Position numbers and translations under genes: made by a program. 62,320 bases of DNA from Lachnospiraceae bacterium UBA1818 (GTDB lineage: Bacteria > Bacillota > Clostridia > Lachnospirales > Lachnospiraceae). The stretch is taken from the NCBI GenBank assembly GCA_904419285.1, contig CAJFQZ010000023.1, forward strand, positions 1 through 62,320, given 5' to 3'. The notes beneath the pieces were generated by a model, which did not search any database, was not told where the DNA came from, and saw nothing but the letters and a program-made list of their open reading frames with translations. Below, one piece after another: positions 3,380-15,652 of this stretch (the stretch's first letter is position 1; every line of letters begins with the position of its first letter).

Positions 3380-5326
3380 CTATGTCTGTTGTGAATAAAC
3401 AAAACCTATGGTTTGTTTTTTTTCTCTTTTTATTTCCGGCAGTTCGATATCCCCGGCCTGTAAGGTTACAATATCTCTATCCGAAATCCGGTCATAATCC
3501 TGGTCAAGCAGCCGCACGGCCTGGGCCATCTGTGCTTTTTCGATCACATTGCGGACGTATCTGCCGTTCCCGAAATTATCCTGAACAGTTGTTCCATTTT
3601 TTCGCAGGCACCTTCTGAAAGCTCTAATCCTTTTCTCTTTGCAATCAGGTGTGCGATATCGCAGAGTTCTTCCGTGCTGTAATCGGCAAATGGTACATGA
3701 AAAGCTATGCGAGAGCGAAGCCCGGGATTTTTCCGCAGAAAAGTCTTCATTTTATCAGGATATCCTGCGAAGATCACGACTACATTATCCCTGTGATTTT
3801 CCATTTCCTGAACAATGGTATTGATCGCTTCATCGCCGTAGGAACCGTCCCGGTCATCGACCAGGGAGTAGGCTTCATCAATAAATAATACGCCGCCTTC
3901 TGCCTGCTTAAACTTTTTCTGTATCATCGGCGCAGTCCAACCGACATATTTTCCTATGAGATCGCCGCGGCCGACTTCGATCAGGTTTCCTTTGGAAAGC
4001 AGGCGGTTTTCTCTCATGATCCGGGCAAAGAGCCGGGCAACCGTTGTCTTGGCTGTACCCGGATTCCCGGAAAATACCATATGCATGGACAGGTGACCGG
4101 CTGCCATGCCTTTTTTCGAGAAGAGCTTCTGTGCCTTGGCATAGGCAAGCGCCTGGCGGATGATCTTTTTTGCTTCAGCCAGTCCGATCATTTCCATCAG
4201 TTCTGTATAAGCCGAACCCTTTGGCGCAGATTTCAGGACAGTCTGATCCGTCGTTTTGACAGCGCAATACTGTGGGTAGACAGATGTTTTCAGTTTTTGG
4301 TCGTACCAGGTATCGAAGAGAGTATGCAGGTTCGGGGCCAGATAATTCTTATCCTCTTCCAGCATGGAAAAAAGTTTCTTATCACATCTGACGCCATAAT
4401 TTCCCGCAAGTCCTTTCAGAAAATTCACCGCTGTGTCGCCACTCATAAAATCTTCTTTTAATTCAACAAAGCTGGTACTCCCGAGATTTTCATAAAAAAT
4501 ATCCTTTAGGCTCGTACACTCTCTTGGAAGTGCAAAGATGGTGAGAACCTGATTTCGGTATTTCTTCATAGTTTTACAAAGCTGTTCGATTATGTACCGG
4601 CCGCTTGAAGCATGGTCATCCTCGGTATCATCACCGGTGAGGTAACTGACGATCAAAGCGCCGCCGATGCAGCTTTGATAAAGACAGCCATAGGTGGAAC
4701 TGGAAAACTGTTCGCCCGGACAGAAACGGACCAGACAGCAGCGCCGGCTTCTCAGCCTGCCGTTGGCATAGAGAGCCTGGAGCAGAAGGCGGCAGAGTTT
4801 CTGCCTTATGTCCGAGTCATCTGTCTGTACCATATAATGGACCGGGTGGCCGATCGCTTTCTTCATGGATTTCCCGGCATAGATTCGGTCAAGTTCCGGG
4901 CGGAGAGACTCTCCGGCAGAGAAGGTATCTGCCTCTCTATATACAGTGGATCTGGCAGCTTTATCTATAATTTTTTCATCGTAGGTCGATATAATCATGG
5001 CGGCAGGCTGTCTGGAGCATGGAATGGGCAGCGTTAAACGTAATTTCTTCCATATGGAGATCCTTTACAGAAAGATTCAGTGCTTTTAAATAAGCCTGTA
5101 TCTGTTCCGGAAGTCCGGAAGATTCCTGACTGATGATCCCGGCATGAAAAATATTGTCGGATGCATCGGTTACATAGAAGCAGGACTGCCCCTTGAGCGT
5201 CTGATTAAAACTGGTGGTTTTCAGGCAGATTTTTCTCGCCCTTTCACGCAGGATATGTCTCTTATCATTTTCTTCTGTCCAGTCCGGGTTGGTTATAATT
5301 CCTTCAAATTTATAAAACTGCATCAC
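3380..5326 (-). pseudogene. SpoVK/CbxX-type AAA+ ATPase, two frame breaks
   Basis: Read from 5326 downward, a 110-residue N-terminal part ends in the frame HDYIDLR, but DEKIIDKA continues one frame over at about 4985. The main part carries the AAA+ core of the CbxX/CfxQ/SpoVK group: Walker A GNPGTAKTT, the pore-side GRGDLIGKYVGWTAP, Walker B LFIDEAYS, sensor VVIFAGYPDKM and an arginine-finger region GLRSRIAF. Near 3585 the frame breaks again. The family-typical NFGNGRYVRNVIEKAQMAQA and a tail to TAG at 3380-3382 continue in another frame; restoring one G would rejoin them. The first junction could instead be two genes overlapping by 23 bases. It is divergent from the WYL regulator. Confidence 0.65.
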
Positions 5327-5541: not shown

Positions 5542-6622
5542 ATGTATGTAAAACAGCCCAAAAAACTGCTGATCCTGAATATCCTTGATATCCTGCGGAA
5601 GTATACGGATGAAGATCACCGTCTGAGCCAGAAGGAGATCGCTGAAATCCTGAAAAATGAATATGACATGAAGGCAGACCGATCTGTTGAATCTGATGGA
5701 CTGCGGATACGAGATCGAGTACAGTGAAACGATCCGGAATGTTCCGGTGAAGGACAAGAAGACCGGAGAAGTCCTAAGAGACAAGGATACCGGAGAGCCT
5801 GTGATGGAGGAGAACGAACTCTGGTCGGATTTTTATCTGAAGAGACAGTTTACGGACGGGGAACTCAGACTTCTGATCGACAGCCTGCTTTTTTCCAGGC
5901 ACATTCCCTACAGTCAGTGCAAAGATCTGGTGGAAAAGCTGGAAGATCTTTCCAATATATATTTTAAATCCAGAGTCCGCTATATTTCCACACTGCCGGA
6001 GGACAAGACGGATAATCGCCAGCTTTTTTATAATATCGAGATGCTGGATGAGGCCATCAGCAAAAACCGTAAGGTTTCCTTTCGATATGTGGAATATCAG
6101 ACAGATAAAAAACTGCATGAAAAGAGACGGCCGGACGGGAGTATCCGGGAGTATGTGATCACACCTTATCAGATGGCAGCAAGGGAAGGGAAATATTATC
6201 TGATCTGCAATTATGATAAATACGATGATGTATCCAATTACCGGCTGGACCGCATCCGGGATATCCGGATACTGGATGAACCGGGAAAACCATTTTCAGA
6301 GCTGAAATGGTCCGGAAACCGGAAGCTGGATCTTGGCGAGTATATGAAAGAGCATGTGTATATGTATTCCAGTGAAAATGTTCATGTGAAGTTCCGGATC
6401 GTAAAGCCGATGATCACGGATGTGATTGATATGTTCGGAAAAGAGGTAGTATTTTCGGATGAAGATGAGACACATGTGACGGTTGCCGTAAAGACAAACG
6501 AGCGGGCGATGGAGCAGTTCGCAAAGAACTTTGCTCCGGATGTAGAAGTGCTTCAGCCGGAGAGTCTGAGGGAGAAACTGAAGGAAGAATTGAAAAGGGC
6601 AGTGGAAGTGTATAGGAGGTAA
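5542..6622 (+). pseudogene. WYL-domain transcriptional regulator, broken in its HTH
   Basis: The first 50 residues form a winged helix-turn-helix (LLILNILDILRKYTDEDHRLSQKEIAEIL). After DR, where family members usually have about six residues (KSVKRN-like) before LLNL, only one base remains before CTGTTGAATCTG, so roughly 17 bases seem to be lost at about 5686. The second frame continues to 6622 with the WYL ligand domain (RKVSFRYVEY, then ITPYQMAAREGKYYLICNYD, then YRLDRIRDIRIL). WYL proteins often regulate defence or stress islands. The loss removes part of the DNA-recognition helix. Confidence 0.75.
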
Positions 6623-6626
6623 GAAG

Positions 6627-7212
6627 ATGGAGAAATTTGACAGTAAGCAACAAGTGTTTGATTTTATTTTCGTGATGGCAATGCGGGATGCTGTCATGCA
6701 AAAAGCATATAAAGGATGAATGCATGTATGTTCGAAATGAAATCTGGAAATTTATTGATAATCAGATTTTGAGGGGGAAATTTGATCATCAGAAAAAACA
6801 GGAAGACTATGATAAGGAATTTTTACGATTAGCTATAGATATTTGTAACACGATAAACAAAGTGGAAAATTCTAAGGAGTTTACATTCGGAAATGCGCAG
6901 AAATTAATCAATATGATGTGCAAATATTTTTATATCTTGGTCTATAATGACGAAAGCTTGCGAAAACATTTTGTATGTTGTCATTGCCCAATGGACAGTA
7001 TTATGTTGGATATCGTATGGAGAAAAAGAGTTAAAGACAGGAAAGATCAATACGGAATATTTGGAAAAGACTTTAAGGATAGTTGGGGAAATGAAGATTT
7101 TTTAGATAAGAATATACCAAAGCGATATGCTATTTTCCAAAAAGCTGTGCGTGATTTAATCGCTGATAAATCAGGTATTGAGAATGGGATAGAATTTGAT
7201 TATAGTGAATAG
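6627..7212 (+). pseudogene. Unknown protein, likely one gene with a frameshift
   Basis: A short frame starts at 6627 behind a perfect AGGAGGT and gives MEKFDSKQQVFDFIFVMAMR, ending at a TGA near 6719. The next frame over continues from about 6705 as DECMYVRNEIWKFIDNQILR and runs to 7212. Joined, they give about 190 residues, rich in charged and aromatic residues. A one-base change in the AAAG stretch near 6708 would unite them. The family was not recognised. It sits between the WYL regulator and the DUF2779 gene and is more AT-rich than either. Confidence 0.5.
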
Positions 7213-7340: not shown

Positions 7341-8819
7341 ATGGAATACAATATCTCCAAATCTCGGTACTGTTCTGCCGTTCAGTGCCCGAAGATCTTA
7401 TGGTTAAAAAAGAATATGCCGGAAGAGTTTGACTCATCCGTTGTGAATCAGGCGGTATTGGATGCGGGTTCGGCTGTCGGAGACCTTGCGATGGGATTGT
7501 TCGGCGACTTTGTGGAAGTTCCTTTTGGCAATCTGAGCGATATGGTTGCAAAGACGAAGCAGCTCATGGACTTGCAGACACCGGTTATTGCAGAAGCGTC
7601 CTTCTCTACGGATGGACTGTTCTGCAGTGTAGATATCCTGAAGGTTCTAAATGATACCGAAGTGGAATTATATGAAGTAAAAAGCTCCACTTCGGTGCAT
7701 GATATTTATTATCACGATGCGGCATTTCAGTATTATGTGTTAAGTAAGCTTGGTTATAAGGTCCGGTCTTGCAACATCGTTCATATCAATAATCAATATG
7801 AACGGAACGGAGAGTTGGACATCCATGAGCTTTTTACCATCAAAGAGGTTACTGCTGACGTAATAGCTTTACAACATGAAGTGGAAGTGAATATCCGGAT
7901 GCTTCGTGAATATATGAAACAGATAGAAGAACCGGAAGATGATATCGGGGAGCAATGTTTCTCACCTTATCCCTGCGGATTTTTCGCCTACTGCTCCAGA
8001 CATTTGCCAACGCCGAATATTTTTCAGGTAGCCGGTGCCAGGACAACCACGAAACTGAAATGCTACCGCAAGGGGATAGTGTCTTTTGAAGATTTGAATA
8101 CCTGTGATTTACTGTCTGGCGCTCAATATAAACAGATCGAACATGAATTATTTCATTATCCGCCTTACATAGACAAAGAAAGAATCGGGGAATTCATGCA
8201 AACAATCACGTATCCTCTGTACTTCCTTGATTTTGAATCTTTTCAGCCGGCAATTCCACTGTATGATCATTCTCATCCGTATGAGCAGATTGTTTTTCAA
8301 TACTCCCTGCATTATATTGAGAGCGAGGGCGGGGAGTTAAAGCACAAAGAGTTTTTAGCATACCCCGGAGAAGATCCACGGCGTAAGCTGGCAGGACAGC
8401 TCTGTGCGGATATTCCTCTGGATGTATGCACTACAGCTTATAATATGGGCTTTGAAAAGGGAAGGATACGTGGGCTTGCGGCACTATTTCCTGACTTGAG
8501 AGAGCATCTTATGAATATACATGATCATATTGTGGATCTTATGATCCCGTTTCAGAAAAAATGGTATTACTGCAGGGCCATGCAAGGTTCTTATTCTATA
8601 AAGTATGTTTTGCCTGCTTTGTTTCCTGATGATCCTGCGTTGGATTACCATAATCTGGAAGGAATCCATAATGGCGGCGAGGCTTCGGATGCTTTTGCAA
8701 AAATGAAAGCGATGACAGAAGATGAGATTGAAATAACAAGAGAACATCTTCTGAAATACTGTGGCTTAGACACTTTTGCTATGGTAAAAGTGTGGGAAAA
8801 ATTAAAGGAAGCTATTTAG
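7341..8819 (+). CDS. DUF2779 protein, Cas4-like nuclease fused to a DnaQ-like exonuclease
   Basis: A 492-residue protein. The N-terminal half resembles a Cas4/RecB-type PD-(D/E)XK region: SRYCSAVQCPKILWLKK, then VDILKV and LYEVKSS as the D...ExK core, with cysteines at CSAVQCP and at CFSPYPCGFFAYCSRH that could hold an Fe-S cluster. The C-terminal half has a 3'-5' exonuclease-like pattern: YFLDFESF (motif I), AYNMGFEKGRI (motif II) and YCGLDTFAMV (motif III). DUF2779 proteins have this two-domain plan. It is likely to act on nucleic acid. Substrate and role are unknown. It is intact among broken neighbours. Confidence 0.75.
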   Translation: MEYNISKSRYCSAVQCPKILWLKKNMPEEFDSSVVNQAVLDAGSAVGDLAMGLFGDFVEVPFGNLSDMVAKTKQLMDLQTPVIAEASFSTDGLFCSVDILKVLNDTEVELYEVKSSTSVHDIYYHDAAFQYYVLSKLGYKVRSCNIVHINNQYERNGELDIHELFTIKEVTADVIALQHEVEVNIRMLREYMKQIEEPEDDIGEQCFSPYPCGFFAYCSRHLPTPNIFQVAGARTTTKLKCYRKGIVSFEDLNTCDLLSGAQYKQIEHELFHYPPYIDKERIGEFMQTITYPLYFLDFESFQPAIPLYDHSHPYEQIVFQYSLHYIESEGGELKHKEFLAYPGEDPRRKLAGQLCADIPLDVCTTAYNMGFEKGRIRGLAALFPDLREHLMNIHDHIVDLMIPFQKKWYYCRAMQGSYSIKYVLPALFPDDPALDYHNLEGIHNGGEASDAFAKMKAMTEDEIEITREHLLKYCGLDTFAMVKVWEKLKEAI

Positions 8820-8865: not shown

Positions 8866-9340
8866 ATGAAATGTTGTTTTACTGGGCACCGGTATTTCCC
8901 GTGGAGTTCTGATCCGGAATCTTCTGAATACCAGGTATTGATAGAACGATTAGATCGGGCAATCGACCAGGTGCTTGCTAAAGGTGTTATCCATTTTATT
9001 TGTGGTAATGCGATTGGCGTAGATACATGGGCCGCCGAGATTGTTTTGCAGAGAAAAAGCTAATAATCCGGAAATATTTCTTGAGATTGCCCTGCCCTTT
9101 TCCGACCATAACAGACACGAACCCGGTTGTCAGAATATTCAATCTAAAGCAGATCTTGTCCATGTCGTCAGCACGGAGAAATCCAGGATAGCCGCTTTCT
9201 GCAAGAGGGATACATACATGGTAGATCAGAGCAACATTCTGATTGCAGTATATGATAAAAACCGCTCTCACAGCGGTACAGCAAAAACCGTGGCTTATGC
9301 GAGAAAACAAGGACTGGAAATCATAGAAATCCAGCCGTAA
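8866..9340 (+). pseudogene. SLOG family protein (DUF1273/YpsA-like), frameshifted
   Basis: The start MKCCFTGHRYFPW and then HFICGNAIGVDTWAAEIVL match the SLOG nucleotide-binding fold of the YpsA/DUF1273 group, where GHR and the GxxxGxD loop shape the pocket. At about 9045-9058 the frame ends in QRKS-stop. The adjacent frame continues with NNPEIFLEIALPFSDHN, RDTYMVDQSNILIAVYD and GTAKTVAYARKQGLEIIEI, the usual C-terminal half. A one-base change near the AAAAA run would join them. The start at 8866 has AAAGGAAAG upstream. SLOG proteins are thought to sense or process nucleotide-derived ligands. Confidence 0.75.
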
Positions 9341-9350
9341 ACCGTTTCTT

Positions 9351-10424
9351 TTACTCATTGTCGTTCTCCATAATATCGAGGAACTCTTCAAAATCCATTC
9401 CTGCCGGGACTTTTGCGATTTGCATGGTAATAAAGAGCCCGTCTCCGTCATCATCTGCTTTAGTCTCTTCAGACACAGCAGGAGGGAGTAAAAGATCGTG
9501 ATAGTCGTTTATGAGTTCTGCAAAATCCCACGGATCCAGAGCAATATTCTTCCCTTTTAAGAATTTGCTTATCAGGGGAAAAATCCGGTAACACTCAGAC
9601 AGAGCCTCCACCGGATAATATTCGCAGTCTATCAGCTGTGGATAAAGATGGCATATCCTGTCCGGCCTGTTATCATACAGGAAAAATCCCCCGTCACAGC
9701 GCTGAGATTTTGTCTCTACAGCGATGAAGACACCGCCGCAGAACATTCCTTCCGGCATGTTTGGATTGTAGAGAATATCTCCGGAGCGAAAGGGCAGAGG
9801 AATATTTTTCCAAGTAGAAACTCTGCCTATATAATAGAGCACACCGGTATACAGAGCCCATTTGTCTTTGGACATATTACAGGCACACATGGATCCCGGA
9901 CGCGCATCCATAAATGCAAGCCTTTGATCCGGGAGAAATCTGGCAGCCATCAGGAAATCCCCCTTGGAATTCTCTTTATAAATCGTGATATAGATGATAT
10001 CTCCCTCATTTTTTGGAATCGCCTGCAAAGTTGATTCCAGAGTGGGGAAGCCTTCTTCGATACTGCGATGTTCTCGCCAGAAGAGTTTTCCTTTTGGAAG
10101 AATTTGATATTCTGCATGATAAACCGCAGGTTCATCGGCTTGATAAAATGCGGCTGTCAGTTCTTTCTGCTGTGCAATATATGCTTGCAGAAAAGCGTGT
10201 GTACTGTCTTTATACGATGTTTTTAGCCAAGCTGTACGGCTGTCAGTGGAACAATCCGGGAGAGTGTCGATAATCTCCTGCCAGGCGGTATATTTTTCTT
10301 CTAAACTGATCGTTTCGCACTGCCAGACGAGCCAGGCGGCTTCCAGAGCGGTTGGCTGATAGCGGATTTGTTGTAAATGATTACGGACGGCATTGGAATT
10401 GACAAATTTTGTAAAATCTATCAT
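9351..10424 (-). CDS. Unknown protein with PF..GDIL core, paralog A
   Basis: A 357-residue soluble protein of no recognised family. Its N-terminus (VNSNAVRNHLQQIRYQPTA, then AWLVWQCETISLEEKYTAWQ and EIIDTLPDCS) clearly resembles the N-terminus of the broken gene at 10574, transcribed in the opposite direction. A later core PLPFRSGDILYNPNMPEGMF corresponds to PF/PY..GDIL blocks in the genes at 10574, 11630 and 13531. The C-terminal 40 residues are acidic. The start has AAAGGAGCC upstream. The four relatives clustered with a phosphatase and a receiver-domain gene suggest a lineage-specific family, perhaps recognition or immunity proteins, but this is speculation. Confidence 0.6.
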   Translation of the reverse strand: MIDFTKFVNSNAVRNHLQQIRYQPTALEAAWLVWQCETISLEEKYTAWQEIIDTLPDCSTDSRTAWLKTSYKDSTHAFLQAYIAQQKELTAAFYQADEPAVYHAEYQILPKGKLFWREHRSIEEGFPTLESTLQAIPKNEGDIIYITIYKENSKGDFLMAARFLPDQRLAFMDARPGSMCACNMSKDKWALYTGVLYYIGRVSTWKNIPLPFRSGDILYNPNMPEGMFCGGVFIAVETKSQRCDGGFFLYDNRPDRICHLYPQLIDCEYYPVEALSECYRIFPLISKFLKGKNIALDPWDFAELINDYHDLLLPPAVSEETKADDDGDGLFITMQIAKVPAGMDFEEFLDIMENDNE

Positions 10425-10573
10425 CGATGTGGCTCCTTTCTTTTTGTTTCAGACTGTGTTTTTACAGGAAATACGATATCATTTGCGGTGGCCTGATTTT
10501 GCCCCATGCGTTCTGTTATATTGATTGCACAGAAAGGGAAAAATATGAATGCAACAAAAAGGAGAGACGAAAG

Positions 10574-11655
10574 ATGAATATTTTCCGTTTTATTAATTCA
10601 AAAGATATCCGCAGACATTTAAGAGAACTTCAGTACCAGTTTACGGTTCCTGAGGCGGCTTTTCTGATTTTTATGAGCAGAATTGTTCCCTTAAAAGAAA
10701 AGTTTGATGCATGGCAGGAAATCATCAACACCATGCCGGATTGTTCTCTGGAAGAGAGACCTAATATGAAGGCGCTCCCAAGTTTTCATCAGTTTCTGAA
10801 AGACTACATGGCACTGCAGAAGAAAATGCTGACCGGGTTTTATCAGCAGGAGAAAGCAGTATATACGATAGAATGTTACGAAATGGAACTGGGAAAAAAT
10901 GATTGGGTTGATTTGGGTTTATATTTTCCGGATTACCAGACAGCAGTTTCAAATTTAACAGAGAACTGGCTGGAAGACGATGTAGAAAAGATCCGAATTA
11001 CAAAACATTACTTTGCTGATGGAGCGGCAAAACAGAAAAAGGAACTGTGGATTGAGACAGATCGGCAATTAAATGTCCTTTCGCTGGGGGAATTACATTT
11101 GAGGGAATGTGGTTCCCTTTTCCCACACCGTTTCACAGGGGAGATATCCTGATTGATCAAAAGGCTCCCGACACTCCAATTGTCCTGCAGGATATATCCA
11201 CGTGGGGACGGGAAGAACTCTTAAGAAATGGATTTTCAGGAGACGACTCATTTGTAAAAAATGCAGAAAAAAGACTGGAACATTACCAGAGACATGGCGA
11301 CACCTCGGACATGAATTATTACGCATATTATCTGTCGGCTGACAGGACAGGGGAAGATCATCTTTATTCAGAAGTTTTTTGTTCCTATCTGGATCTGGAA
11401 AGATATGAGAAACCCCTGGAGGGAGAGACAAAGATCTTGTCTGTAGTTGCCGGAGGAATTCTGTCTGACCGTCAGAAGCGGGCAGATATAGAGCTTGTCT
11501 GTAATGCGGTTCGTCTCTTCATACAGGAGGAACAGTGCCGGAAGTTGAGAAAATGGATGGAAGAAATATATACCAAAGAGAGTCTGGAAGCATTGGGGAT
11601 GGTAAAAAAATGTCTGGGAGACAAGAGATATGAAGATGGAGAAGGAAACATTTGA
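10574..11655 (+). pseudogene. Unknown protein with PF..GDIL core, paralog B, frameshifted
   Basis: The first frame starts at 10574 (AAGGAGAGACGAAAG just upstream) as MNIFRFINSKDIRRHLRELQ and shares EAAFLIFMSR, LKEKFDAWQEIINTMPDCS with the divergent paralog at 9351. Its sense ends near LHLRE at about 11107. The next frame over carries MWFPFPTPFHRGDILIDQ and continues to 11655. Adding one A in GGGAATGTGG would rejoin the halves into about 360 residues. The two paralogs are divergent across 149 bases. The family is unknown. Confidence 0.6.
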
Positions 11656-12826
11656 TGTACTTGTAAAGAAGGTAAAGGATGCGGTTATAGAAGATCTGAC
11701 TTTCATAGATCCGACCAGAACGATTTTGAAGGCACGTATCTGGTGCAGAGATGATGAGGATCAGTTTGATCTCTATTGCCTGTATGATTTCGGTCCATAT
11801 ATGGATATGCTTTTTCGTAGGTTTAAACCGGATGTTACAGAATGGATCCGGGAGCAATGTGAATGTCTGAAAGAACGTTTTATGGAAAAAGAGCGGACGG
11901 GAGTAGATATCAGGGAAACAAATCGTTATGCCTATCGATTGGAGACATACTCAGAAGAAGAAATATACCGCAAGTTTTATATTAGTGTTACAAAATATGT
12001 TGAAATTAATGGAAGAATGACAATCCTTTATAGTGCGGATTTTTCTTTGAAAGGGGAAGTTATTGCGATCGATGATCCGACAGGATATTATACAGGATTC
12101 CAATACGAAGGTTACGAACTGTCAAAATCAGAAAAAATCATTTCAGATAATCTGTCGTTGTTTTTTCGAGGGATAGCGGGAGTATTTTCTGAAGAACTGT
12201 ATCAGAAAGGCGATATTCTGTATGTGGATGGCAGTCCCTATGAAAGTCCTTTCTATGCAGTGGACTGTGGAAAACGCCTTTTGTACATAGAAAATGCAGA
12301 AAGCGTGACCCGCTGCTTACAATATGATCTTGCCCCGCGATCTTATCCAAAACGAGAGATAGAACTAAGGTATCGAGATGCGATTCCGCTTTGCTATAAA
12401 GTGCGGATAGTAGAGGAATGCAGATACAAGTGTCTTACCGAAGCGAGCAGACTGATAAAATCAGGTTTGGATGAGGAAGAGGATATAAAAGAAAAGGTTG
12501 GAGGAATATTTTTGGAGGAATTCAGGTATACGCCGGTTAAAAGCGAATATCAGAGTGAAAGCCGGATAAAAGAAATAGCCGGGTTAATTACTGAACTGAG
12601 TGAAAAATATCCGGAAATGCCTTTTACAGCATTTTTTCGAGAATTTAAAGATTGGATGGAAGATACAAGAAAAATCAGTGATTGGAATCGGGCTGATATG
12701 GATGATAAATGGCTGCTTGCATTTCTTTCTGAATATAGCGGTCGGAATTTGAAGCTTTACAGATACCAGAGAGAAAAATTTAAGAGAAAATGTCAGGAGC
12801 GGAATCCCGTTTTTGAAGATATGTAA
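11630..12826 (+). CDS. Unknown protein with GDILYVD core, paralog C
   Basis: A 398-residue soluble protein with no recognised family. Visible blocks are KARIWCRDDEDQFDLYCLYD near the N-terminus and KFYISVTKYVEINGRMTILYSADFSL, both with close counterparts in the protein at 13531 (RYRDDEDCLYADCS and WEVTKYFRC...AVIYSLKLEIL). The central core KGDILYVDGSPYESPFYAVDC aligns with YHPGDILYVDANPFGKPFYAVYC there. The last 120 residues are extra. Its start overlaps the end of the upstream broken paralog by 26 bases, so they share a transcript. Confidence 0.65.
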   Translation: MKMEKETFDVLVKKVKDAVIEDLTFIDPTRTILKARIWCRDDEDQFDLYCLYDFGPYMDMLFRRFKPDVTEWIREQCECLKERFMEKERTGVDIRETNRYAYRLETYSEEEIYRKFYISVTKYVEINGRMTILYSADFSLKGEVIAIDDPTGYYTGFQYEGYELSKSEKIISDNLSLFFRGIAGVFSEELYQKGDILYVDGSPYESPFYAVDCGKRLLYIENAESVTRCLQYDLAPRSYPKREIELRYRDAIPLCYKVRIVEECRYKCLTEASRLIKSGLDEEEDIKEKVGGIFLEEFRYTPVKSEYQSESRIKEIAGLITELSEKYPEMPFTAFFREFKDWMEDTRKISDWNRADMDDKWLLAFLSEYSGRNLKLYRYQREKFKRKCQERNPVFEDM

Positions 12827-12885
12827 CAGAGTAATTTTCACCATATATGACTACTTTAGAATATTTCTGGAGGATTAAGTGAAGG

Positions 12886-13368
12886 ATGAAAATAAAGATT
12901 TTCAGCAGACGTCAAATCGAAGAATTGCTCCGGGAAGGTTTCCCGGAGAAAACAGCAGTCATCAGTTTCTATGATCCTGAGACATCACGCTTTATTGCTG
13001 AAGATTACAGACCGGTTGATTATAAAGAAAAAACAGACCGATTATTCCAAGTTTCCCTGCATGACATTGATCTGTCTGTTCTCCCGGAGTATGGTCTGAC
13101 TTATGAGACATATTTTCCAGAGGCAGACGCATTGGCAGAATTTATCTATTCTGCGAAAGCGGATGGATATGATATTATCTGTCAGTGCGAGTACGGGGAA
13201 AGCAGAAGTTCCGGGTGTGCAGCTGCGATACTGGAGCATTTCTACAAAAATGGGATCTCAGTTTTTGCGGATTACAGATATTATCCGAATCAGGTCGTAT
13301 ATCATAAAGTGTTGGAGGCATTAGAGAAGTTCTATGAAACCAGTAAAAGGAGTTTTTTGGATCGTTGA
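12886..13368 (+). CDS. Tyrosine/dual-specificity phosphatase-like protein
   Basis: A 160-residue single-domain protein with the CX5R phosphate-binding loop at residues 101-107 (CEYGESR, followed by SSGCAAAILEHF), the signature of cysteine-dependent phosphatases. A preceding VISFYDPE and FQVSLHDIDL may supply the general-acid aspartate. The protein lacks signal or membrane segments, so it acts in the cytoplasm on an unknown phosphorylated target. The start is preceded by GGAGGATTAAGTGAAGG. It sits between the two GDIL paralogs C and D, which suggests a shared pathway. Confidence 0.7.
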   Translation: MKIKIFSRRQIEELLREGFPEKTAVISFYDPETSRFIAEDYRPVDYKEKTDRLFQVSLHDIDLSVLPEYGLTYETYFPEADALAEFIYSAKADGYDIICQCEYGESRSSGCAAAILEHFYKNGISVFADYRYYPNQVVYHKVLEALEKFYETSKRSFLDR

Positions 13369-13382
13369 GTGCAGTTGTATAT

Positions 13383-13526
13383 ATGAATCCGAATATTGGA
13401 GAAGACTACATAAAAGATATTATGGAGATTTATCGGCTTTCAGAGTATCCCTGCATAAAATTTGATTACAGCAGACATTATAAATGTTATCTTGATGCGG
13501 GATGGAAAGCTGAAGGAAGACGTTGA
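13383..13526 (+). CDS. Possible small protein or remnant
   Basis: A 47-residue frame begins MNPNIGEDYIKDIMEIYRLS and ends shortly before the start of paralog D in another frame. It has no clear ribosome binding site. It could be the end of a decayed gene or simply an accidental frame between the phosphatase and paralog D. Confidence 0.25.
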   Translation: MNPNIGEDYIKDIMEIYRLSEYPCIKFDYSRHYKCYLDAGWKAEGRR

Positions 13527-13530
13527 CAGG

Positions 13531-14481
13531 ATGAGAAAGATGAGTGTTTTTAAGAAAATACAGAATATCACACTGGAAGAATACCTTACTCTTCTTGAAC
13601 AGATGAAACAGGCAGCTCTCAGTGATATGGATTCGTTTCCGGAAAAAGAAAAGTATATGGGAGATGTTCAGCCGGGTTCATTTTTAGGCGTAAGACTCCG
13701 ATACCGGGATGATGAGGACTGTCTGTATGCCGATTGTTCCTCAGCGGGACCACGGCCTTTTGCGAGACTGCGTCCGTATCTCTGGCAATTTATGGAGGAA
13801 GAGTCGGAAGAACTGCTGGGTAATAAGGATTTTGATGAACCGGCAGAAAACAAATTCTACTGGGAAGTAACAAAATATTTTAGATGCAGGGATCGCTTTT
13901 ATGAGCAGTACGCGGTAATATATTCCTTGAAACTGGAAATATTGGGCGTTGAGGGATATCCGTATGATTTTGAACGCAGGACATTTCGGGATTTAAATTA
14001 TGAGGAATGTTTTACGGAGGAACAGAAGTTTATCCTGGGGCGTGCGAGGCAACTGAAAAATCCGATGAATGTTGTGCTGCCATATCATCCGGGAGATATC
14101 CTGTATGTGGATGCAAATCCGTTCGGGAAACCATTTTATGCAGTATATTGCGCAGAGACAGTATCGGACAGAGAGCATTTTGAATGGACGAAAAAGGAGT
14201 ATGGATTTTATAAACGGGAGCATCCATGTCTTTATATTTCAGAAGACAGAAAGGGGCTGGACATTACGAATCTGTGCGGATGGTTTACGGATTATATACC
14301 GTTTCCTTATGCCCCGCTTGATCGGATTAAAGTGGTGGATACCTGTTGTGATCCGGCCCTTTTAAAAGCTGCGGAGATGCTAAAAGAGAATCCGGCCATT
14401 TTTTGGAAGTGGCTGGATTGGAGAGAAACCGGGCAATCGTTGGAAGAAAAAATCCTTGCTGTGAGAGGTGTAAGTATATGA
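13531..14481 (+). CDS. Unknown protein with GDILYVD core, paralog D
   Basis: A 316-residue soluble protein of the same unrecognised family as the gene at 11630. It has RLRYRDDEDCLYADCS, a WEVTKYF block, IYSLKLEILGVEGYPYDF and the core YHPGDILYVDANPFGKPFYA. It is shorter at the C-terminus than paralog C. The ATG at 13531 is preferred because AAGGAAG lies 12-18 bases upstream; a TTG at 13462 keeps the frame open further but lacks a site. The stop overlaps the start of the cREC gene by 4 bases (ATGA), so they are translationally coupled. Confidence 0.65.
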   Translation: MRKMSVFKKIQNITLEEYLTLLEQMKQAALSDMDSFPEKEKYMGDVQPGSFLGVRLRYRDDEDCLYADCSSAGPRPFARLRPYLWQFMEEESEELLGNKDFDEPAENKFYWEVTKYFRCRDRFYEQYAVIYSLKLEILGVEGYPYDFERRTFRDLNYEECFTEEQKFILGRARQLKNPMNVVLPYHPGDILYVDANPFGKPFYAVYCAETVSDREHFEWTKKEYGFYKREHPCLYISEDRKGLDITNLCGWFTDYIPFPYAPLDRIKVVDTCCDPALLKAAEMLKENPAIFWKWLDWRETGQSLEEKILAVRGVSI

Positions 14482-14756
14482 AAATCTGGTTGGATGATAT
14501 TCGGCCGGCACCGGATGGATATGTGTGGTGCCGGAGCGTTAATGAGGTAATAGGTGTTATAAGTAATACGAACGATAAAATAGAATTGATAGACTGCGAT
14601 CACGATCTGGGCGAATATGCGAGAGATGGTGGAGACGGGATTAAGCTGCTTGATTGGTTGGCAGAACATGGACTTTTCTATAAAATACATTTACATACGA
14701 TGAATCCTGTCGGGAAAGCAAAGGAACGATTGATCAGAAGATACTGGAAAGAATAA
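14478..14756 (+). CDS. Cyclic-phosphate processing receiver (cREC) domain protein
   Basis: A 92-residue stand-alone domain. It opens MKIWLDDIRPAPDGY, with the paired aspartates D6 and D7, has the central IDCDHDLGEYARDGGDG block (residues 38-54), and then HLHTMNPVGKAKERL. This pattern fits the REC-like family named cyclic-phosphate processing receiver domain, described by others as linked to nucleotide-processing systems. Unlike normal response regulators there is no output domain. It is the last gene of the run of GDIL paralogs, starts inside the stop of paralog D, and is closed by a terminator at 14770. Confidence 0.7.
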   Translation: MKIWLDDIRPAPDGYVWCRSVNEVIGVISNTNDKIELIDCDHDLGEYARDGGDGIKLLDWLAEHGLFYKIHLHTMNPVGKAKERLIRRYWKE

Positions 14757-15028: not shown

Positions 15029-15652
15029 ATGAATGTGTATGAAGCAGTCAAAAGCACAGTGACCACCAGGCAGGCGGCGGAATATTACGGGATCAAAGTG
15101 ACAGGCAGGGGAATGGCACTCTGTCCGTTCCATCATGACCGGCATCCCAGCATGAAGCTGGATCAGAGATTTCATTGTTTCGGGTATCAGGCAGACGGGG
15201 ATGTGCTTGATTTCGTGGCGGGATATTTTAGCCTGTCTGTCCGTGAAGTAGCCATGAAACTGGCAGAAGATTTCGGGATCCGGTATGAGAAGCAGCGGCC
15301 GCCAGACCGGGGAAAACGAAAAAAGAAGGTAAAAGCAGCGCCATTGGAACAGAACTATAAAAAACTGGAAAGACGGTGCTTTTCTATACTTGGGCAGTAT
15401 TGGGAACATCTTTTGTTTTGGAAAAAACAGTATGCCCCGGGAGAACCGGATGCGGACTGGGATCTCAGGTTTTGTGAAGCGCTGGATCGGATTCCCAGAG
15501 TGGAGTATCTGATGGATATTCTGTTGTATGCTCCTCTGGAAGAACGGGTGGAACTTCTGCTGTCCGCCGGAAAGGAGATCCTCGGGTATGCAGGAAGACT
15601 TCAAGAGCCTGAAACCGGAACAGCTGGAAGCTCTGAAACAGTTGTTGGGTGA
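15029..15652 (+). CDS. CHC2 zinc-finger primase-like protein with a missing ligand
   Basis: A 207-residue protein. The N-terminal 75 residues form a DnaG-type CHC2 zinc-binding fold: LCPFHHDRHPSMKL gives Cys32 and His35, and FHCFGYQADGDVLDFV gives Cys50. The fourth position (residue 53), a cysteine in CFGC-type fingers, is tyrosine. The remainder is helical and unrecognised, with no TOPRIM catalytic domain, so it is the short accessory primase type carried by phages and integrative elements. The start has GGAAGGGATAGGAG upstream. Its end overlaps the following VapE-like stub in another frame. Confidence 0.7.
   Translation: MNVYEAVKSTVTTRQAAEYYGIKVTGRGMALCPFHHDRHPSMKLDQRFHCFGYQADGDVLDFVAGYFSLSVREVAMKLAEDFGIRYEKQRPPDRGKRKKKVKAAPLEQNYKKLERRCFSILGQYWEHLLFWKKQYAPGEPDADWDLRFCEALDRIPRVEYLMDILLYAPLEERVELLLSAGKEILGYAGRLQEPETGTAGSSETVVG

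Follow-up and report, generated by a model that had tools for sequence, protein, structure and literature searches.

An unnamed GDIL protein superfamily fused to cREC and SLOG domains in variable islands of Clostridia

Four neighbouring genes of Lachnospiraceae bacterium UBA1818 encode proteins with a short P(F/Y)..GDIL core and lie beside genes for a phosphatase-like protein and a cyclic-phosphate-processing receiver domain (cREC), which raises the question of whether they form one family and what such a family might do. The stretch read was contig CAJFQZ010000023.1, positions 1–62,320 (62,320 nucleotides, hereafter the window). We find that the four genes belong to one superfamily, here called GDIL, that is fused to cREC and SLOG domains in other genomes, recurs with a set of neighbours and is maintained by purifying selection. 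As an unnamed superfamily that has a confident structure prediction without a close fold match in PDB or BFVD and is fused to two enzyme domains with predicted chemistry, GDIL provides a handle on both. In Clostridia of the gut and rumen, where such pathways are, to our knowledge, little described, its islands point to RNA-damage or nucleotide signalling. GDIL, p119, p179, QKxxNM and CbbX-like are working names used in this analysis.

Profile evidence for one superfamily

All four genes, named here by their first window coordinate (9351, 10574, 11630 and 13531), carry the core that an initial annotation of the window had reported. The longer blocks that it described within pairs are also present: BLASTP matched the 9351 and 10574 proteins at E 6e-25 and phmmer matched the 11630 and 13531 proteins at E about 1e-12. 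Between the pairs, single sequences reached at best only E 0.004 with BLASTP and 0.001 with phmmer --max (in a database of seven proteins).

Iterative searching through relatives yielded alignments of two subfamilies, A (A8, 68 rows) and B (A9, 30 rows). Comparing profile A with the 24 rows of the main B group gave an alignment of 258 columns (Prob 99.0, E 4.5e-18). Profile B in turn aligned with the branch formed by 11630 and 13531 (Prob 97.4, E 1.2e-11). Direct comparison of profile A with this branch was weak (Prob 58, 75 columns), so its link to subfamily A runs via the B family. The proteins were divided into three predicted domains: a helical one at the N terminus, an alpha/beta one in the middle and the beta-rich GDIL domain, which is followed by helices at the C terminus. 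A matched B in each: E 5e-7 and Prob 92 for the N-terminal domain, E 9e-5 with a Prob of only 59 for the middle domain, and E 2e-13 and Prob 98 for the GDIL domain, compared with E 0.029 or worse for mismatched domain pairs. At E 0.1, neither the A nor the B profile matched any of the neighbourhood proteins in reversed sequence. On these profile comparisons, the four window genes are one superfamily, with homology spanning three domains and not GDIL alone.

Fusion to cREC and SLOG domains

A scan of GTDB genomes with a seven-row alignment (A7) as query recovered 58 loci, mainly from Lachnospiraceae, Ruminococcaceae and other Clostridia; the outliers were two Erysipelotrichaceae, one Spirochaetales and one Proteobacteria metagenome-assembled genome, a type of genome in which binning can mislead. 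With the window's first 20 kb and loci L030, L034, L035, L061–L064 and L066 added, these made up 67 loci (of which L115 and L118 come from a single contig), whose open reading frames (ORFs) were clustered and which fell into 41 groups at 60% GDIL-A identity.

GDIL-A is followed by cREC within a single ORF in eight cases from three groups, and a SLOG-like domain precedes GDIL-B in six ORFs (L070, L071, L078, L098, L104 and the partial L108). Pfam confirms cREC in the L082 fusion and SLOG in the L098 fusion, and returned no SLOG match for L070, L071, L078 or L104. We assign the L070-type N-terminal regions to SLOG because over 124 columns their profile matched the regions of L098 and L086 that Pfam confirms as SLOG (Prob 93.6, E 2e-7); ten unrelated control profiles gave E 0.046 or worse, and the YpsA cluster gave only Prob 15 (E 0.0018). 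At L070 and L071, the SLOG–B gene directly follows the A–cREC gene.

Beside GDIL-A ORFs, L086:12417-13934 encodes a triple fusion of SLOG (YAcAr), cREC and a DnaG-type primase/toprim domain. L087:4214-5824 and L091:2193-3794 appear to join an ATPase-like part, SLOG and p119 (PRGRVEI), a reading made by eye plus a DnaB_C match below cut-off; neither of the two stand-alone p119 copies scanned had a Pfam match. Among ORFs of at least 280 aa, neighbouring A and B genes overlap 12 times, in seven groups, and neighbouring A genes seven times, in four groups. In the window itself, the A, B, cREC and SLOG parts are separate genes. The fusions confirm a tie of GDIL to cREC and SLOG that is more direct than proximity, and they are the strongest evidence for this association.

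A recurring neighbourhood

Ten main partners were followed across the groups: WYL, p119, CbbX-like AAA, AAA-M41, metallophosphoesterase, DUF2779, the CX5R phosphatase-like protein (PTP), SLOG, QKxxNM and RtcB. At least one is present in 30 of the 41 groups, so the neighbourhood recurs. WYL is found in 22 groups (two WYL types, in 17 and 6), GDIL-B in 17, p119 in 13, CbbX-like AAA in 12, metallophosphoesterase in 10, AAA-M41, DUF2779 and the SLOG cluster in 9 each, RtcB and QKxxNM in 8 each, and PTP in 7. Adding the Pfam-confirmed L098 and L086 to the YpsA cluster raises SLOG to 11 groups, and adding the L070 type raises it to 13. Enzymes acting on RNA ends (RtcB, KptA, HAD-SAK or cREC) occur in 14 groups, and an RNA-end enzyme, SLOG or WYL occurs in 32; Pfam confirmed all three KptA and all three HAD_SAK_2 proteins scanned. 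Partner counts are lower bounds because 9 of 66 loci span less than 8 kb.

We compared nine GDIL-bearing 20-kb segments with 29 hand-chosen segments of the same contigs, a test that leans in favour of association, as the profiles came from clusters including most of these loci and the p values are uncorrected for 14 tests. WYL was present in 7/9 GDIL-bearing segments compared with 1/29 controls (p 2e-5), and the second WYL type in 4/9 compared with none. The corresponding figures were 5/9 and 0 for GDIL-B, 4/9 and 0 for p119, 4/9 and 1 for AAA, 3/9 and 1 for AAA-M41, 3/9 and 0 for each of DUF2779 and QKxxNM, and 2/9 and 0 for metallophosphoesterase (p 0.051); p179 was in 0/9 GDIL-bearing segments.

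Across 16 GDIL-bearing genomes, three of four KptA genes (including a tandem pair) and four of eight YpsA matches (the broken window gene counted once) have a GDIL gene within 10 kb. RtcB lies within 10 kb in 3 of 12 cases and within 20 kb in 5 of 12. cREC exceeded its cut-off in five of the 16 genomes and stands beside GDIL genes in the window genome, G020 and G681; weaker cREC matches fell largely within long ORFs and could be receiver domains of the common type.

Two side observations concern these neighbours. The unannotated QKxxNM family often stands beside WYL genes (L106:2317-3045, L058:1250-1933 and L063:16637-17281), and short proteins with an FtsH-like AAA domain and peptidase M41 recur beside GDIL genes (for example, L082:2377-3657).

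A proposed scaffold or sensor role

We tentatively favour a reading in which A/B pairs are non-enzymatic scaffolds or sensors that unite cREC and SLOG in WYL-controlled islands responding to RNA damage or nucleotide signals, a role that we hold to be possible rather than probable. GDIL is taken as a scaffold or sensor because the P[FY]xxGD core is all that A and B have in common, and a shared candidate catalytic set is missing. Subfamily A alone retains several polar residues, such as S10, E28, D57 and H76, and given these an enzymatic activity of this subfamily may exist.

Under the scaffold model, A and B, often encoded as overlapping gene pairs, would hold cREC (on A) and SLOG (on B), and the island would answer to cleaved RNA or to signals of the ADP-ribose type. 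A metal-independent RNase would cut RNA to give 2',3'-cyclic phosphate ends, which KptA could turn into ADP-ribose phosphate. SLOG, cREC and linear phosphatases would then bind or process the cyclic ends or the KptA-made ADP-ribose phosphate, RtcB, where present, would reseal the RNA, and WYL would turn the island on. Excerpts of earlier accounts predict that cREC and SLOG process cyclic phosphates and ADP-ribose derivatives (PMC7824862, PMC9503650) and that WYL senses nucleotide ligands (PMC7824862, PMC9503650, PMC4012209). The scaffold role, the substrate and the order of the pathway are what we infer.

Several points weigh against this model. The putative scaffold role is drawn from the absence of a catalytic pattern, and for cREC and SLOG, too, the activities are no more than predictions in the excerpted account (PMC9503650). 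Eleven of the 41 groups have none of the ten partners, which short contigs do not explain because 10 of these 11 include a locus longer than 10 kb, and 27 groups have no RNA-end enzyme. The segment comparison showed no significant enrichment of PTP, SLOG or RtcB (each 1/9 compared with 0/29, p 0.24), 9 of the 12 RtcB genes are more than 10 kb from a GDIL gene, the cREC genes of G224 and G562 are not beside one, and the window genome (94% complete) has no RtcB or KptA match. The partners that the initial annotation had singled out fared unevenly: cREC and SLOG do recur, as fusions and as neighbours, and the association is weaker for PTP in both the group counts and the segment comparison.

The partner-less groups would also fit a reading in which GDIL genes are accessory cargo of variable islands, without one shared function, and their co-occurrence reflects a hotspot. 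Gene order and content differ strongly among loci, and a tyrosine integrase lies beside the island of Ruminococcus turbiniformis, the nearest relative (L106). However, direct domain fusions join GDIL, cREC, SLOG and p119, and an integrase similar to that of R. turbiniformis is present in only 3 of the 67 loci (their flanks are short), so that we regard mere cargo as distinctly unlikely.

An extension of the scaffold model would make GDIL A/B the receptor core of an undescribed RNA-damage signalling pathway of Clostridia, binding broken RNA ends or an ADP-ribose-derived messenger through a new fold, passing what is bound between SLOG and cREC and thereby setting repair together with WYL-controlled defence. 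In this detailed form, the proposal is unlikely.

Known systems share parts of this gene set. GDIL islands have cREC, SLOG, KptA, RtcB, HAD-SAK, WYL and phosphatases in common with the cREC-centred RNA-repair and NAD+/ADP-ribose networks of the Aravind group, as excerpted accounts describe them (PMC7824862, PMC9503650). GDIL, p119 and QKxxNM are unnamed in the family libraries and were not encountered in those excerpts (PMC7824862, PMC9503650), and, unlike those networks, GDIL loci are mostly on bacterial genome contigs of Clostridia. Some GDIL loci resemble the RtcAB operon of E. coli and Salmonella, as far as excerpts portray it (PMC7790460, PMC5175333), in having RtcB beside a ligand-sensing regulator. 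They differ in that the regulator is WYL, that AAA+, SLOG, cREC and GDIL are present and that the window genome is without an RtcB match. A literature search of limited scope found no paper on this gene set. RNA-end processing enzymes, the sign of an RNA-repair island, mark part of the GDIL loci; the window has cREC only, and because RtcB and KptA are missing from it, this pattern was not visible to the initial annotation.

An unnamed family with a probably new fold

Searches of Pfam, NCBIfam and PHROGs assigned the GDIL body to no named housekeeping or phage family, either of which would have counted against an undescribed family. Against Pfam, the 68 A members gave only cREC (four) and DUF7599 (one, marginal at E 0.00044), and the 30 B members gave only SLOG, in a single protein. 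NCBIfam returned no match for the 68 A members and nothing near any cut-off for the two B proteins compared with it (P0004 and P0005); PHROGs returned nothing for P0001, P0004, P0005 or the 372-aa member of R. turbiniformis.

Sequence searches against the PDB gave a best E of 0.22. The AlphaFold model of the 9351 protein (mean pLDDT 84.1, pTM 0.81) and the predicted model of the 13531 protein (mean pLDDT 75.2, pTM 0.77) arrange their elements similarly: helices come first, then an alpha/beta part in the middle, then the beta-rich GDIL part, and further helices close the C terminus. Foldseek found no match at E ≤0.001 among 350,542 PDB chains (best 0.10 for 9351 and 0.048 for 13531), and none at E 0.001 for the 9351 model in BFVD (best 0.014). 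From these models, the superfamily likely has a new overall fold. A few BFVD matches, to small uncharacterised phage proteins of 71–141 residues, had Foldseek probabilities of 0.99–1.00 over 60–83 columns (E 0.014–0.043); part of the 9351 protein may therefore resemble a known small domain, which speaks against a wholly new fold.

The short GDI motif is like that of MazF/PemK toxins, and the GDIL domain could on this basis be a MazF/PemK-like barrel and the proteins RNases or RNase-like RNA binders. With hhalign, a MazF profile of 12 sequences (12 ORFs that passed a motif filter, from 30 fetched loci) aligned the motif close to where the MazF fold begins, at E 0.0067–0.0075, compared with 0.029 or worse for unrelated domains. 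Yet the alignment covers 13 columns at a probability of 5–6%, rather than showing profile homology over the barrel, and MazF structures are absent among the 50 Foldseek matches listed for each model. We rejected the relation as highly improbable.

Distribution and the question of defence

With GDIL profiles, 13 of 299 genomes of the family matched at E 0.01 (several at 0.001–0.01 are doubtful), 11 of 392 genomes of the order at 1e-4 and 2 of 299 genomes of the phylum at 1e-4, each count including the window's own genome. The 13531 protein alone matched 3 of 146 relatives, and a four-row B alignment matched 4 of 299 genomes. GDIL loci occur in bacteria of the gut and rumen. The counts exclude L037 (G149, E 2.2e-4), which looks like TruB; L036 (G374, E 8.5e-5), for which phmmer found no partner or GDIL match; L038 (G088, 224 aa, E 0.0015), which may be a genuine member of short length; L003 and L007 (G046, E 9e-4); L017–L020 (E above 0.002); and L187 (G890).

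A phage or plasmid origin was considered and rejected. tblastn gave no match to P0001 in phage records or to L068:10001-11068 in plasmid records, and the sole viral-contig match, L126, appears from its size and coordinates to be the same contig as L072.

Patchiness of this degree would suit an undescribed anti-phage defence system, in which GDIL pairs would sense or effect, SLOG and cREC would make or clear a signal, WYL and AAA+ would regulate, and RNA repair would limit self-damage. The WYL neighbour matches PADLOC WYL models, the AAA+ neighbours are weakly similar to IetA, and tandem GDIL copies diverge. On the other side, PADLOC 2.0.0 has no family for P0001 (the sole A protein scanned), P0005, the members of alignment A9 (0/30), PTP or cREC, and no single effector-like family recurs in the locus cluster list, in which no search aimed at TIR, membrane or other effectors was made. 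The initial annotation's suggestion of an undescribed system, beside gene types of nucleotide-signalling or defence islands, is borne out in that the family is unnamed and its neighbourhood recurrent, and gains nothing from PADLOC as regards defence; defence as the island's function is credible, if on the unlikely side.

State of the window locus

The features of the island are listed in Table 1. Two of the four GDIL genes, 11630 and 13531, are intact where they were first placed, whereas 9351 lies on the minus strand and 10574 is split by a frameshift rather than being one ORF.

Table 1 Features of the GDIL island in the window
Feature	Coordinates	Strand	Basis and remarks
AAA+ gene, frameshifted (4976-5326 + 3544-4998)	3544..5326	-	R. 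turbiniformis orthologue with PF00004 and PF17866
WYL regulator gene, frameshifted (5542-5727 + 5687-6622)	5542..6622	+	PF13280, E 8.4e-13
Short unannotated protein resembling QKxxNM family	6688..7212	+	31.5% identity over 92 aa to R. turbiniformis member
DUF2779 predicted nuclease, intact	7341..8819	+	R. turbiniformis orthologue with PF11074; NCBIfam UU173-like below cut-off
SLOG (YpsA family) gene, frameshifted (8869-9063 + 9041-9340)	8869..9340	+	PF06908 on both pieces
GDIL subfamily A protein	9351..10424	-	357 aa, intact; BLASTP/phmmer, AlphaFold model
GDIL subfamily A, N-terminal piece of frameshifted gene	10574..11152	+	Profile match
GDIL subfamily A, C-terminal piece of 10574 gene, with PTPFHRGDIL core	11107..11655	+	Profile match
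GDIL subfamily B, divergent branch	11630..12826	+	398 aa, intact; profile comparison
CX5R dual-specificity-phosphatase-like protein (PTP)	12886..13368	+	DSPc E 0.0038, below cut-off; PHROG 5614 E 9.5e-6
GDIL subfamily B, divergent branch	13531..14481	+	316 aa, intact
cREC, cyclic-phosphate-processing receiver domain	14478..14756	+	PF20274 E 9.5e-22, 77.9 bits versus cut-off 27

The cysteine phosphatase proposed beside the GDIL genes has the CX5R loop CEYGESR, as read from the translation, but falls short of the Pfam DSPc (PF00782) cut-off (17.5 compared with 33.5 bits). The stand-alone cREC gene in stop/start overlap is as described: it starts inside the last codons of the 13531 gene, and it is the only cREC match found in the window genome. 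SLOG, WYL, AAA+ and DUF2779 genes are indeed nearby, the first three of them frameshifted. Both SLOG pieces pass the PF06908 cut-off of 27.7 bits (28.7 and 30.0 bits), and in the genome-wide YpsA search one of the two was over cut-off. The 6688-7212 protein stayed outside the QKxxNM cluster in ORF clustering, and the AAA+ gene is labelled CbbX-like.

Comparison with R. turbiniformis showed how far the window locus differs from an intact one. There, the 10574 orthologue is a single 372-aa ORF, and the SLOG (165 aa), WYL (366 aa) and AAA (685 aa) genes are intact; all four are frameshifted in the window, whose p119 gene lacks about 160 bp. The window is also without a 3.6-kb R. turbiniformis block that carries RtcB, a second PTP and another GDIL-A copy (RtcB and the second CX5R phosphatase-like gene at L006:8078-10032). 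Because long intact ORFs lie elsewhere in the window, the frameshifts suggest decay rather than poor sequence, with assembly error as the other candidate. Judged by these comparisons, the window is a split (unfused) and probably partly decayed form of the island.

What remains is under purifying selection. Relative to R. turbiniformis, and with two short SLOG and AAA fragments left out, dN/dS is 0.18–0.29 for the GDIL pieces (0.29 for the 9351 protein, which is 77% identical to its orthologue), 0.17 for cREC, 0.09 for PTP (98% identical) and 0.56 for the short SLOG piece. dN falls from 0.041–0.129 in GDIL through 0.025–0.034 in the AAA, SLOG and cREC pieces to 0.008–0.016 in PTP, WYL and DUF2779. 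Faster change in GDIL, with one to five GDIL ORFs of at least 250 aa per locus, would be expected of a poly-immunity array whose repeated copies neutralise toxins of neighbouring bacteria. GDIL dS is mostly higher too, however, which means that the difference is in part not specific to the proteins, and fusion to enzyme-like cREC and SLOG domains and a WYL context are not known to be typical of immunity proteins; an immunity array is very unlikely.

Homology between the window and R. turbiniformis runs out within an ORF read by eye as primase-like (window 15029-15146; L006:17000-19196). In R. turbiniformis the tyrosine integrase comes next, matching PF00589, with the Tn916-type PF02920 just below cut-off, and an integrative element may thus carry the island.

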